A DNA stretch of 37,055 nucleotides from NCBI GenBank assembly GCA_936914905.1, contig CAKZGI010000091.1:1-37055 (forward strand). Reading direction: 5' to 3'. Under the pieces are notes generated by a model. It made no database searches. It saw only the letters and a program-made list of their open reading frames with translations, and was not told the DNA's origin. The stretch comes from an uncultured Trichormus sp. GTDB lineage: Bacteria; Cyanobacteriota; Cyanobacteriia; Cyanobacteriales; Nostocaceae. A program made the translations under genes and the position numbers. The stretch's first letter is position 1. Every line of letters starts with the position of its first letter. Positions 4,244-9,838 of this stretch are shown one piece after another.

Positions 4244-7200
4244 ATGCATCGTATAAATGCCACACCAGGTGAATGGAATCAGTCAGAAGGTTTACTTTTT
4301 CTAGAACAAACTCCAGCCCCTTTTGTGTTTATTACTGCGGCTGACACCGACGTTCAAACCCTAGCAGCAGCAGTCCCAAAATTACCTACACAATTTCCTG
4401 CCCTCAGAGTTGCCAACCTGTTGCAATTACAGCAACAAATAAGTATAGATACTTATGGTGAACAAGTTTTAGAACTTGCCCAAGTCATTGTGCTGCGTCT
4501 CTTAGGAGGATGTTCCTATTGGGCTTATGGTTTAGAAGTCGTGCAGGAGATTGTACAACGTCAGGGTACAACGTTAATTGTAATGCCAGGTGACGACGCT
4601 CTTGATCCCGATTTAATTTCTCATTCCACTATTTCCATAGAAATTGTTAATCAAGTGTGGCAATACCTTAAAGAAGGTGGTATTGAAAACTTCCTCAATG
4701 CCCTCCAATTTATTGCTGATAAATGCTTTGATACTAAATTTAATCCTCCACTACCACAGACTATTCCCCGTGTGGGCTTGTATGAAGGACTGGGGACTGA
4801 CTGGGGACTGGGGACTGTGGAAACTAGGAGTAAAGGAGAAATTTCTTCCATTCCCAATCAGCAATTACCCATTCCCAATCAGCAATTACCCAAAGTTGGT
4901 ATCTTATTTTATCGCGCTCATTATTTAGCGGGAAATACCAAGGTAATTGATGCTTTATGTAGTGCTTTGGTACAAAGAAACTTACAGCCTGTGGCAGTAT
5001 TTGTTTCTTCCTTGCGTGAACCTGGTGTTTGTGAAGGATTATATGAGTTATTTCAACCTCAAGATTCTGAGTATATTGATTTGTTATTGAATACTACCAG
5101 TTTTTCCTTAGCGCAGTTAGAAACGGAAACACCTGAAATTGAACTTTGGCAAAAATTAGATGTACCAGTTTTCCAGGTAATTCTGAGTGGTGGTTTTCGA
5201 GAACAATGGGATGTAGGGTTACAAGGTTTGACTCCCCGTGATATGGCCATGAATGTGGCATTACCAGAAGTAGACGGGCGAATTATTACCCGTGCTGTTT
5301 CCTTTAAAACTTTACAAACTCGGAATCATGATTTAGAAACCGATGTGATTGTTTATGAACCAGTGAGCGATCGCATTGAATTTGTCGCTCAACTAGCAGC
5401 TAACTGGGTAAAACTCCGCCAAAAACCACCCCAGCAACGGCGCATAGGCTTAATTTTAGCCAATTATCCCAACACCAATGGACGTTTAGCTAATGGTGTC
5501 GGTTTAGATACTCCCGCCAGTTGTGTGGAAATCCTCAAAGCTTTAAAATTAGCCAGCTATGAAGTAGAGAATATCCCCGCAGACGGTGATGAACTAATTC
5601 AACGTTTAACATCTGGTGTGACAAATGATCCAGAAGGAAGAGACTGGAAACCACTACAGCAAAGTCTTTCTATGGAGGAATATCAAGAATATTTTTCTAC
5701 CTTACCCGAAACTGTACAACAAGGAATTACTAAACGTTGGGGACTGGGAAATAGCCAATCACCCATTCCCATTTCAGGAATTAAATTTGGTAATGTCTTT
5801 GTAGGTATTCAACCTTCTAGGGGTTATGATATTGACCCAAGTTTCAATCATCACGCACCAGATTTAGAACCAACCCATGATTATTTAGCTTTTTATTATT
5901 GGGTAAGAGAAAGCTTTGGTAGTGATGCCATCATTCATGTTGGTAAACATGGAAATTTAGAATGGCTTCCGGGTAAAAGTGTAGCTTTATCTGATACCTG
6001 CTATCCAGAAGTAGCATTTGGGGCAATGCCTCATTTATATCCATTTATAGTCAATGACCCCGGAGAAGGTTCACAGGCTAAAAGACGCGCCCAAGCGGTA
6101 ATTATTGATCATCTTACACCCCCCATGACCAGGGCTGATTTATATGGGGCATTGCAACAAGTAGAAAATTTAATTGATGAATATTACGAAGCCGAAAGTT
6201 TAGATCCTAATAGAATGCCGGCAATCCGCAATCGCATTCAAGAATTAGTCATCAAGGAAAATCTCTACAAAGACTTAGGCATCACCGAAGAAAAAGACAT
6301 TATCAACTTTGAAACCTTAATTTTAAACTCCCTCGACGGCTATCTGTGTGAACTCAAAGAAGCCCAAATCCGCGACGGACTACACATATTTGGACAAACC
6401 CCCCAAGGAACGCAACTGCGAGATTTAATAGTAGCGATCGCTCGCGTCCCGAACCGTCATTCTATCGGCATTACCCGTGCGCTCGCTCAAGAATGGTGCT
6501 TAGACATAGACCCCCTCACAACAGACCTTAGCACCCCTTTCACCCCTTCTCAAACCCTCTCTGCGCCGCTGCATCTCTCCATAAGATTAGAATCTTGCCG
6601 TACACACGGCGACATCGTAGAACTCCTAGAAGAACAAGCGGCCGATTTAGTTGAACAAATCATCAATTCCCAGTCCACAATCCCCAGTCCCCAGTCCCCA
6701 GTTCTTAACTGGATCACCTTAAAACTCCTTCCCGCACTAGAAAAAACAAAAGAAGAAATCACCAACCTCTTACGAGGATTGGACGGTAAATACGTCCCCA
6801 GCGCTGCATCCGGCGCACCCACACGCGGCCATCCTGAAGTTCTCCCGACCGGCAAAAACTTTTATGCTGTTGATATTCGCGCCATACCCACAGAAACTGC
6901 CTGGGACATTGGCAGAAAAGCCGCAGAAACCCTAATTGAAACCTATACCCAAAAACATGGAGAATATCCCAAAACCCTGGGATTATCCGTTTGGGGGACT
7001 GCTACCATGCGGACTGGGGGTGATGATATCGCCGAAGCCTTAGCTTTACTTGGTGTACGACCTATGTGGGATGGTGCAGCACGGCGAGTAGTGGATTTTG
7101 AAATCTTGCCCGTATCTATTTTGGGTCGTCCCCGTGTTGATGTTACCTTAAGAATTTCGGGATTTTTCCGGGATGCTTTCCCCAACTTAATAGATTTATT

Positions 7201-8113
7201 TTCCCAGGCAGTCGCTGCAGTTGCTAACTTAGATGAACCAGCAGAAAACAACCCTCTAGCAGTTGCAGTACAAAAAGAAACCGAATTATGGACTGACCAA
7301 GGTTTATCTTTAGAAACAGCAAAAGAGCGATCTCTATATCGTGTTTTTGGTTCTCAACCAGGCGCTTACGGTGCCGGACTCCAAGGTTTGATCGCTTCTC
7401 AAAACTGGCAGACAGACCAAGATTTAGCCCAAGCTTACATCAATTCGAGTAGTTACGCCTATTCTTCAAAACAGGGAACCGGGAACAGGGAACAGGGAAC
7501 AGAAAGCAATAATACTGTCACCTCTCACCTATCACCTGTCACCTCTCCCGAAGTTTTCCAGCAACGGTTGAAGGAAATGCAAATTGTCCTGCAAAATCAA
7601 GACAACCGTGAACATGACATTCTTGATTCTGACGACTATTATCAATTTCAGGGTGGTTTAACAGCAGCGGTCCGTTCTCTCCAAGGAAAAAATCCCGAAA
7701 CCTATTTTGGCGATAACTCCAACACATCCCAGCCCAAAGTCCGCTACCTGAAAGAAGAAATTACCAGGGTCTACCGTTCTCGTGTAGTTAATCCCAAATG
7801 GATAGCGGGAGTGATGCGTCACGGTTACAAGGGTGCATTTGAAATGGCTGCAACGGTAGATTTTTTATTCGCCTACGATGCTACCGCCCAATGTGTAGAA
7901 GACCATATTTATCAGGGTGTTGTCCAAGCTTATTTAGAAGAGCCTGTTGTTTGCGAATTCATCCAAGCCAAGAACCCCTGGGCGCTACGTGATATAGCCG
8001 AAAGACTCCTAGAAGCCCATCAAAGAGGATTATGGCAAGATGTCAATTCAAAGACACTGGACAATCTACGCAACCTAGTCCATCAAGCAGAAGCAGCAAT
8101 CGAAGAACAATAA
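4244..8113 (+). CDS. cobN: CobN-type cobaltochelatase large subunit
   Basis: A member of the CobN/magnesium-chelatase H superfamily, 1289 residues. By family knowledge it binds the corrin ring and inserts cobalt with an AAA+ ATPase partner in cobalamin synthesis. The N-terminus (GEWNQSEGLLFLEQTPAPFVF) and overall pattern resemble cyanobacterial CobN more than ChlH. Conserved blocks include PTHDYLAFYYWVRESFGSDA and HVGKHGNLEWLPGK (about 545-578), GGDDIAEALALLGVRPMWDG (about 925-944), the RPRVDVTLRISGFFRD region, GAYGAGLQG, and the C-terminal NPKWIAGVMRHGYKGAFEMAA. Three to four short low-complexity inserts are read in frame: about 182-215, 499-510, 806-820 and 1075-1102. They are encoded by intergenic-type tandem repeats. 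No partner ATPase subunit lies in the window; cyanobacterial CobN is often assumed to share ChlI/ChlD (inference). The start ATG is preceded by only a weak purine tract. Confidence 0.88.
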   Translation: MHRINATPGEWNQSEGLLFLEQTPAPFVFITAADTDVQTLAAAVPKLPTQFPALRVANLLQLQQQISIDTYGEQVLELAQVIVLRLLGGCSYWAYGLEVVQEIVQRQGTTLIVMPGDDALDPDLISHSTISIEIVNQVWQYLKEGGIENFLNALQFIADKCFDTKFNPPLPQTIPRVGLYEGLGTDWGLGTVETRSKGEISSIPNQQLPIPNQQLPKVGILFYRAHYLAGNTKVIDALCSALVQRNLQPVAVFVSSLREPGVCEGLYELFQPQDSEYIDLLLNTTSFSLAQLETETPEIELWQKLDVPVFQVILSGGFREQWDVGLQGLTPRDMAMNVALPEVDGRIITRAVSFKTLQTRNHDLETDVIVYEPVSDRIEFVAQLAANWVKLRQKPPQQRRIGLILANYPNTNGRLANGVGLDTPASCVEILKALKLASYEVENIPADGDELIQRLTSGVTNDPEGRDWKPLQQSLSMEEYQEYFSTLPETVQQGITKRWGLGNSQSPIPISGIKFGNVFVGIQPSRGYDIDPSFNHHAPDLEPTHDYLAFYYWVRESFGSDAIIHVGKHGNLEWLPGKSVALSDTCYPEVAFGAMPHLYPFIVNDPGEGSQAKRRAQAVIIDHLTPPMTRADLYGALQQVENLIDEYYEAESLDPNRMPAIRNRIQELVIKENLYKDLGITEEKDIINFETLILNSLDGYLCELKEAQIRDGLHIFGQTPQGTQLRDLIVAIARVPNRHSIGITRALAQEWCLDIDPLTTDLSTPFTPSQTLSAPLHLSIRLESCRTHGDIVELLEEQAADLVEQIINSQSTIPSPQSPVLNWITLKLLPALEKTKEEITNLLRGLDGKYVPSAASGAPTRGHPEVLPTGKNFYAVDIRAIPTETAWDIGRKAAETLIETYTQKHGEYPKTLGLSVWGTATMRTGGDDIAEALALLGVRPMWDGAARRVVDFEILPVSILGRPRVDVTLRISGFFRDAFPNLIDLFSQAVAAVANLDEPAENNPLAVAVQKETELWTDQGLSLETAKERSLYRVFGSQPGAYGAGLQGLIASQNWQTDQDLAQAYINSSSYAYSSKQGTGNREQGTESNNTVTSHLSPVTSPEVFQQRLKEMQIVLQNQDNREHDILDSDDYYQFQGGLTAAVRSLQGKNPETYFGDNSNTSQPKVRYLKEEITRVYRSRVVNPKWIAGVMRHGYKGAFEMAATVDFLFAYDATAQCVEDHIYQGVVQAYLEEPVVCEFIQAKNPWALRDIAERLLEAHQRGLWQDVNSKTLDNLRNLVHQAEAAIEEQ
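4790..4890 (+). repeat. short tandem repeats read in frame inside cobN (first site)
   Basis: The motif GGGACTG recurs (GGGGACTGACTGGGGACTGG and following). A tandem duplication follows: CCCAATCAGCAATTACC occurs twice at about 4854-4890, encoding IPNQQLP-IPNQQLP. Such GGGACT/CAATTACC strings are normal intergenic short tandem repeats in Nostocales. Here they lie inside an otherwise conserved open frame and are translated as DWGLGT and PNQQLP blocks. Confidence 0.75.
6664..6704 (+). repeat. CCCCAGT-type tandem repeat inside cobN (second site)
   Basis: Four near-copies of the heptamer CCCCAGT (the complement of the GGGACTG family) lie in frame and encode STIPSPQSPV. The flanking sequence on both sides is conserved CobN, so this looks like a repeat insertion or expansion tolerated in a surface loop. 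Confidence 0.7.
7470..7548 (+). repeat. GGGAACA and TCACCT tandem repeats inside cobN (third site)
   Basis: AACAGGG units (CAGGGAACCGGGAACAGGG and on) are followed by a TCACCTnTCACCT array. They encode KQGTGNREQGTE and TSHLSPVTSP. Both units are common between genes in Nostocales genomes; here they are translated without breaking the frame. Confidence 0.7.
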
Positions 8114-8207
8114 GTATAGGAGGAGTCAGGAGTTCTCGACTTTTGACCACACCCTAAATTAATTTCTTCCTTTGCGCGAAACTTTAAAATCTCTGTAAGA
8201 AAGAAAT

Positions 8208-9214
8208 ATGGAAAATCTTGCGTATTTGTACTTGGCTTATGCCCACGAAGATAGTCATATCACTCAATTAATCTCCTGGAATTCTTTCTTTTATAAAGCA
8301 CCAGTTCCAAACTGGAAACGTTCTTGCAGCAAAGCTTGCATGTATATGCAACCTCTAGCAGTCACCTTATCGATCTTGAGTGCTGTCAGTACCGTTTTAG
8401 CATTAGAAATAGGTAATCAAAAAAGTTCTGATTTATCAGTGAATATTGAAGTGAGCATTCTAGAACAGTTAGAATAAAAAATAGAACCTTGGCCAAAAAC
8501 TCCTGGAAGTAACTCAACCATCGCTACAACCACAACCACCACAACCACCAAAATCACCACTTTTAATCTAGTCACCACAAAAAGTAAAAGTCCTAAGTCC
8601 TAATTTCTTGGTCAAAGGTTCAGCATTTTACAAGCACGGTTACGAATCGCTGGCTTTTATTATGGGAATTCTACTGCCATATTTGGGCCAATTACCGAAG
8701 AAGCTGTCAAGCGATTCCAACAGCCTTATAAATTGAATATTGATGGTGTTGTTGGTTCAGCCACACTCGCCAAATTACCACCACTTAATCCAGATGGAGA
8801 ACAAACTTCCAAAAAAGCAATTAATCCAGATCAGTTGAGTTTAGGCGTCGCGGTGAAGCTGTCAGAATTTTGCAAGAACATTTAATCAAAGCCGGATATA
8901 TTAGACAAACAACCTAATGGCTACTATGGTTTTTATACAGCCGATGCTGTAAGTCGCTTTCAAAAAAATCACCGACTAGAAGCTAACAGGAATGCTAGGC
9001 CAACGCCAACTACCAGAGCTAAGTTACATAACTTAGTCAAAACTTCAACCAAAAGTGATTTTAGCGTTCTAGAAATTCAAAGACGATTGCAAGAAAAGGG
9101 TTTTTATAAAGGTCAAATCAACAGAGTAATGGCAGCAGATACCAAAAAGCCATCCAGTGATCGCAAGAATTTTATGGTATCAGCCTTACTGATATCAAAA
9201 ACGGTAATTTCTAG
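8208..9214 (+). pseudogene. decayed peptidoglycan-binding (cell-wall) protein gene, convergent with furA
   Basis: The first 89 residues remain open (MENLAYLYLAYAHEDS..., then a hydrophobic segment around MQPLAVTLSILSAVSTVLA that looks like a signal or membrane anchor) and stop at 8475-8477. Downstream, pieces of PG_binding_1 repeats appear in shifting frames. They are AVKRFQQPYKLNIDGVVGSA (about 8700), GEAVRILQEHLIKAGY (about 8850), FYTADAVSRFQKNHRLEA (about 8932) and VLEIQRRLQEKGFYKGQ (about 9070). A last stretch, EFYGISLTDIKNGNF, runs to TAG 9212-9214. Several frameshifts and stops separate them. The gene ends 29 bases from the furA stop and faces it, the same arrangement as alr1690/furA in Anabaena PCC 7120 as I recall. 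There the alr1690 read-through transcript is antisense to furA. The protein here is not made intact. Confidence 0.8.
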
Positions 9215-9243
9215 GGTCGCAGTTAGATTCCCCCACTTAAGTG

Positions 9244-9699
9244 TTAAAGCGGCATTAAAGCTCTTTGACACTTCGGACAAACAGCATGAATTGTCAACTG
9301 ACAATCAAGCAGGTGAAAACCTTCTTTTTGAGCTGTTTTTGCCCCAATTTTCAAAATAGATTCGTTTTTAAATTCAATGGTAGTGTTGCATCTAACACAA
9401 ATCAGGTGATGGTGATGATGGGGATAGGGTTGGTTAATTTCATAATGTTTATGTCCTTCACCTAACTCTAATTCCCTCAAAATGCCCATCCTCGCCATCA
9501 ACTTCAAAGTCCGATAGATGGTGGATAGACTGATGCCCTCACCGTCAGTTTCTAGCCGCAGATAAAGATCCTCCGCACTTAAGTGTTCACCTTGTGGAAG
9601 TTCTTGAAAAATGTGAAGTATTATTTCACGCTGGGGAGTTAAACGCCAGCCTCGATCGTTTAGTTCTGCCTTAAGTGAACCAGTTGTGTAGACAGTCAT
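9244..9699 (-). CDS. furA: ferric uptake regulator FurA
   Basis: Iron-responsive global repressor of the Fur family, a cytoplasmic dimer. Starting at MTVYTTGSL (ATG 9697-9699) gives 151 residues; a five-residue upstream extension to 9714 is possible but less likely. The DNA-binding winged helix holds RGWRLTPQRE and ISLSTIYRTLKLM (about 16-70). The metal-binding half has the HKHYEINQPYPHHHHH histidine cluster (83-98) and five cysteines at 101, 104, 133, 141 and 144. These are two CxxC motifs plus one Cys, the same numbering I recall for Anabaena FurA. It sits between sigC (upstream, same strand) and a decayed cell-wall gene (convergent). A promoter with a perfect palindrome over its -35 region lies upstream, which fits autoregulation (inference). 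FurB/Zur or PerR would be the alternatives, but the cysteine layout favours FurA. Confidence 0.93.
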   Translation of the reverse strand: MTVYTTGSLKAELNDRGWRLTPQREIILHIFQELPQGEHLSAEDLYLRLETDGEGISLSTIYRTLKLMARMGILRELELGEGHKHYEINQPYPHHHHHLICVRCNTTIEFKNESILKIGAKTAQKEGFHLLDCQLTIHAVCPKCQRALMPL

Positions 9700-9732
9700 A
9701 CTAAATTTTCTCAATAAAGCCTGTTAATTGAG

Positions 9733-9772
9733 AATATAGCAAATGTTTGACCTGATTTGCAACAATTGTTGC
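9733..9772 (-). promoter_or_regulatory. candidate furA promoter with palindromic operator
   Basis: On the minus strand TTGCAA (9757-9762) and TATATT (9733-9738) are spaced 18 bases apart, placing a start site about 27 bases before the furA ATG. The -35 box overlaps a perfect 14-base palindrome, GCAACAATTGTTGC (9759-9772). That geometry suits a dimeric repressor, possibly FurA itself. The palindrome is not a classical GATAAT-type Fur box, so the binding protein is unknown. Confidence 0.5.
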
Positions 9773-9838
9773 TTATTGAAAATATTGGGTAATTGTTATT
9801 AGTTATTCGTGATTGGTCATTTTCACCAATCACCTTTT

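Follow-up and report, generated by a model that had tools for sequence, protein, structure and literature searches.

Can the antisense control of a gene outlive the decay of the gene on which it depends? This question is raised by the furA locus of an uncultured Trichormus sp. (the window, i.e. the whole stretch of 37,055 nucleotides analysed here), in which a broken alr1690-like gene stands opposite furA. In Anabaena sp. PCC 7120, an alpha-furA-alr1690 antisense RNA has been described (Hernandez 2006, 2010, as reported in the review PMC6202907); the same review lists the alpha-furA transcript as 2200 nt and indicates that disrupting the antisense RNA raises FurA. As in this system, the window has a gene of the homologous kind at the same place and in the same convergent orientation to furA, but the gene is destroyed, its upstream region is altered and the locus is known from its sequence alone. 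A preliminary description of the window offered two alternatives, either the loss of the antisense control together with the gene or the conversion of the gene into a regulatory RNA. We propose that the locus is very probably a pseudogene undergoing ordinary erosion in the lineage of a symbiont, with no specific function.

The features of the locus are collected in Table 1. The remnant starts with the ATG at 8208, its homologous stop TAG lies at 9212-9214, and the furA stop codon (9244-9246, minus strand) is convergent with it. The intact homologue of Anabaena lutea (L047), a protein of 369 aa with four PF01471 peptidoglycan-binding stretches, matched the window's own genome at 8208-8429 (E 1.6e-15) and at 8472-9167 (E 2.2e-72, with three TAA inside). 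An alr1690-like gene directly downstream of furA and convergent with it is present in the window as a remnant only, stops and frameshifts leaving no intact PG_binding_1 open reading frame at the locus. The coordinates and these interrupted protein matches confirm that a broken gene ends 29 bases from the furA stop in convergent orientation, as the preliminary description had it. The homology to the alr1690-type gene was also rightly recognized, the PCC 7120 antisense RNA being in print (PMC6202907); the membership of alr1690 itself in this PG_binding_1 family is suggested by its matching place and by the near relatives. Of the statement that the transcription unit and the orientation remain, position and orientation are seen, whereas the transcription unit is not an observation. 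For the upstream gene, chlH was a candidate and was ruled out by the NCBIfam assignment to cobN. By eye, short repeats of the gggaacagggaaca type follow one another in frame inside cobN (7471-7545); they resemble intergenic repeats, the rest of the protein being conserved.

Table 1. Coordinates of the features of the cobN-furA locus in the window.
Feature	Positions	Strand	Evidence
alr1690-like PG_binding_1 repeat protein, pseudogene	8208..9214	+	protein matches with internal stops, alignment with intact relatives, lesions
cobN (cobaltochelatase subunit), intact, upstream, same direction	4244..8113	+	NCBIfam TIGR02257
furA, intact, 151 aa	9244..9699	-	PF01475
Gap between cobN and remnant, 94 bp	8114..8207	+	similar sequence occurs in the L033 gap (S. 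aphanizomenoides) and, in part, once more in the window's own genome
Spacer between remnant and furA stop, 29 bp	9215..9243	.	coordinates
In-frame stop TAA, absent from 'Nostoc azollae' 0708	8475..8477	+	alignment and lesion list
Two frameshifting lesions absent from 0708, an insertion of 7 bases and a deletion of 16 bases (reference Sphaerospermopsis L033)	8588..8619	+	alignment and lesion list
One-base frameshifts at three more sites (approximately 8847, 8900 and 9143), absent from 0708	8847..9143	+	alignment and lesion list

The window matches 'Nostoc azollae' 0708 at approximately 94%, this genome being the only other one of the window's genus in the family search (217 genomes). Over 4000 bases, its second contig is 100% identical to NC_014249 of 0708. 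Strain 0708 is the Azolla cyanobiont, an obligate symbiont with 31.2% pseudogenes in its genome (Ran 2010, PMC2900214), and by its kinship the window genome would be that of a sister Azolla cyanobiont of another species. A decayed copy of the alr1690-like gene is found in 0708 at the same place and in the same arrangement, its remnant occupying 589,984-590,992 and furA 591,025-591,477 of the chromosome (G001:C1). In a quick tree of 102 loci the intact gene of Sphaerospermopsis aphanizomenoides (L033) belongs to the sister of the window and 0708 (SH-aLRT 100). Like the pseudogenes of 0708, the window remnant shows stops, frameshifts and drift, without notable difference from them except that it faces furA. 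The main texts of PMC2900214, PMC12376041 and PMC12362246 contain no furA, and the papers listed by literature searches for furA in the Azolla cyanobiont, or for antisense RNA in Nostoc azollae, deal by their titles with different topics.

Lesions were listed relative to the nearest intact copy, that of S. aphanizomenoides L033, which is 84.7% identical to the window. In addition to the stop, the frameshifting insertion and deletion and the one-base frameshifts of Table 1, the window carries a TGA at 9158 (L033 frame) and three in-frame 6-base indels, one of them drawn as 2+4. In 0708, three in-frame stops are followed by a one-base insertion and then by two more stops (L033 frame), with a 3-base deletion besides, and all these sites differ from the window lesion sites. 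A shared ancient inactivation in both genomes was expected first; the data do not bear this out, since the alignment against L033 contains no stop or frameshift common to the window and 0708, and the reading frame therefore broke separately in each lineage. A shared first silencing step may nevertheless have taken place outside the reading frame, or as a missense change.

Between the window and 0708, the remnant differs by 66 substitutions over 988 aligned bases and by 9 indel events, against 3.2% substitutions and 1 indel for cobN and 2.9% substitutions and no indel for furA. The remnant substitutions are evenly distributed over the three codon positions (22/21/23, chi-square p 0.96), whereas those of cobN are not (35/18/69; Fisher p 0.006 relative to the remnant, positions 1+2 against 3). 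The changes on the stem before the window/0708 split are codon-like though few (14/7/19). With a codon-like stem and an even distribution afterwards, the constraint on the protein seems, from these counts, to have ended near the split, the frames being broken independently. By its disrupted frame and vanished codon-position bias, the remnant behaves as a pseudogene. The breaks could in principle be assembly or sequencing errors of a draft genome, the window assembly consisting of 485 contigs; this explanation is hardly credible, because the finished 0708 genome is also broken in the same gene, the window has 7-, 16- and 6-base indels besides single-base ones, the substitutions are even over the codon positions and the neighbours furA and cobN are intact.

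We then considered whether the remnant changes as other non-coding DNA does. Over the interval 8114-9243, the window and 0708 differ by 6.8% substitutions and 8.8 indels/kb. The comparison set comprised 16 local segments, the interval itself included, each 150 bp or longer and lying where the window is aligned, which were chosen solely for containing no ORF of 110 aa and may include functional elements; their range is 3.7-13.7% substitutions and 1.7-12.1 indels/kb. The interval has the second highest indel rate of the 16 segments and a substitution rate that belongs to their lower half; it changes like the other 15 non-coding segments of the same window, as expected for a pseudogene. These rates give no sign of constraint at the RNA level, and since the substitutions stand in the lower half, the interval may still be under weak constraint. 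The neutral change of the remnant says little on a read-through RNA, since such an RNA would act through its furA stretch, where the FurA protein already imposes constraint.

In the region upstream, the gene starts at most 27 bp after cobN in 71 of the 73 intact relatives (the exceptions being L033 and L043), so that in most relatives a separate transcription start, if any, must sit inside cobN. The gap of the window is 94 bp, and among further intact loci L155 has another long one (375 bp). The promoter scan gave no promoter-like match on the plus strand of 8114-8207 and two inside the remnant (8446-8475 and 8902-8930), the total on both strands being 6 against 4.4 expected, no more than chance. 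A new promoter in the gap was rejected, as there is no plus-strand match and the TAAAAT seen by eye approximately 20 bases before the ATG is without a good -35. Part of the gap (8141-8181) may be a dispersed repeat by its appearance, with an 89% copy elsewhere in the window's genome (G000:C318:649-693) and a comparable sequence in S. aphanizomenoides L033.

Inside cobN, the sequence GATGTAAATATA was found exactly in 41 of 90 intact relatives, and in 58 its site is placed 93 bases upstream of the start codon; this site reads GATGTCAATTCA in the window, GATGCCAATTCA in 0708 and AATGTCAATCAA in the intact L033. At the 3' end of cobN in intact relatives, approximately 60-70 bases before the stop, an Ile is encoded by ATA in 73 of 77 and a Val by GTA in 72 of 87, and such uniform codons are suggestive of an overlapping control element. 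If this element were the promoter, a transcript through a gene like that of L107 and furA would be approximately 2.1-2.2 kb long, near the reviewed 2200 nt. The close coupling to cobN and the candidate element would both have changed by the time of the last ancestor shared with S. aphanizomenoides. A conserved promoter inside cobN was demoted by three observations. When 215 codon columns were compared as a control, the ATA one came only 10th in enrichment, behind CGA-TCG and others. Taken over all intact loci, synonymous change is lower close to the cobN end (0.297) than further up (0.398), whereas in the Dolichospermum-type intact set it is not (0.273 vs 0.216 further up). Finally, the loss of the gene and the loss of the cobN element do not coincide across loci. 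The ATA at the end of the element is kept in the gene-less loci L060, L065, L076 and L081, and the element is missing from L033, in which the gene is intact.

Taken together, these data leave the second alternative of the preliminary description, a gene turned into a regulatory RNA, unsupported. A dedicated RNA gene kept by selection would agree with the persistence of the remnant of approximately 1 kb and of its direction in both genomes, the sole point for it, but the substitution rate, the many indels and the codon positions are as in non-coding sequence, the upstream gaps of the window and 0708 differ by 8.5% and one indel of 4 bp, that of the window being devoid of a plus-strand promoter-like match, and the common cobN sequence is altered; we hold such a gene to be highly improbable. 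The idea had been said to fall if a promoter upstream of 8208 were degraded too. The alteration of the common cobN sequence goes in this direction, although this sequence is not proven to be a promoter and two plus-strand matches, at chance level, lie inside the remnant.

Another possibility is that the coding part is dead while read-through of cobN, extending over the remnant, continues to supply antisense RNA to furA and to lower FurA. Such read-through is possible, since cobN is intact and points at furA and the plus strand has no terminator-like match between cobN and the furA start or anywhere else in 7800-9808; zero matches are weak evidence, because approximately 1.5 are expected by chance on both strands and one strand was scored over this part. 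The best local hairpin between the remnant end and furA is weak (-3.0 kcal/mol in the window, -4.5 in 0708) in comparison with the hairpins of -9.3 to -13.7 that overlap the gene stop codon and are the best in 7 of the 16 intact loci folded. However, the hairpins of the related intact loci L035, L045 and L047 are also weak (-1.5, -1.5 and -5.4), and the weak hairpin was discarded as a mark of decay, the stop-codon hairpin being the best in just 7 of the 16. The spacer was considered in the same way: the distance between gene and furA has a median of 131 bp and a minimum of 61 bp in the 73 intact relatives, against 29 bp in the window, but two of the further loci with an intact gene (L126 and L166) have spacers of 27 and 34 bp, by which a short spacer was ruled out as a special feature. 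Neither the hairpin nor the spacer marks an RNA role, and we consider a read-through that still lowers FurA unlikely. Still less likely, in our opinion, is the full scenario in which the antisense control of furA outlived the gene in Azolla cyanobionts, the regulation having moved from the gene's own promoter to that of the upstream neighbour by cobN read-through over a dead, terminator-less remnant, with the protein discarded.

In the gene-less loci L060 (5782-5998) and L081 (5834-5998), both reversed, a hairpin-like sequence of the AAAAGCGGAA...TTCCGCTTT type, resembling the hairpin that overlaps the gene stop codon in relatives, is still seen by eye near furA. Its survival after the outright loss of the gene is a hint of a role for furA, which it may serve as a terminator.

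The fate of the gene was compared among relatives. The loci were collected via furA, so that furA is present in all of them by construction and its own fate lies outside the comparison. Among the first 80 loci, 73 have a single intact ORF and five have no gene (L036, L041, L060, L065, L081), while L076 keeps a 27-residue trace and L079 has a split gene. Another 42 loci, mainly from near relatives, comprised 16 repeats of loci already counted and 26 new ones, with an intact gene in 21, no gene in four (L138, L139, L141, L151) and neither adjacent cobN nor a match in one (L125). On the quick tree, which was built from the cobN end and furA and in which 58 of the 99 inner branches are starred, the fewest changes between the intact and lost states are four (the split L079 uncounted): the window with 0708, the clade L138/L036/L141/L041/L139, the clade L081/L060/L065/L151, and L076. 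No direction follows from this number; the changes are taken here to be losses, given the predominance of intact copies and the traces left in some loci. As in the window, the gene between cobN and furA is lost and furA is present in the gene-less loci of Dolichospermum, Aphanizomenon and Sphaerospermopsis. Their losses are however outright, with intervals of 76-282 bp in eight loci, another insert in L139 and a short trace in L076, whereas the window keeps a remnant of 1 kb. In L139, a stretch of approximately 1.5 kb (1128-2666) replaces the gene and appears, by eye, insertion-sequence-like, with a transposase-like gene on the minus strand.

Of the two alternatives first offered, the loss of the antisense control with the gene fits the data and is favoured. 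In the eroding pseudogene that we propose, the alr1690-like gene would no longer have been needed around the window/0708 split; separate stops and frameshifts would then have gathered in each lineage, with a drift like that of the local non-coding DNA. The alr1690-driven antisense control of furA would have been lost together with the gene and is probably gone, and any remaining antisense RNA would be unselected read-through from cobN. Since disruption of the antisense RNA raises FurA in PCC 7120, the cyanobiont may, by analogy, contain more FurA as a consequence.

With at least four changes in its presence on the tree, the gene known as the antisense partner of furA is not a constant feature of these cyanobacteria. 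Should the antisense RNA have persisted all the same, the Azolla cyanobionts would offer a natural experiment in which the RNA of alr1690 is separated from its protein.
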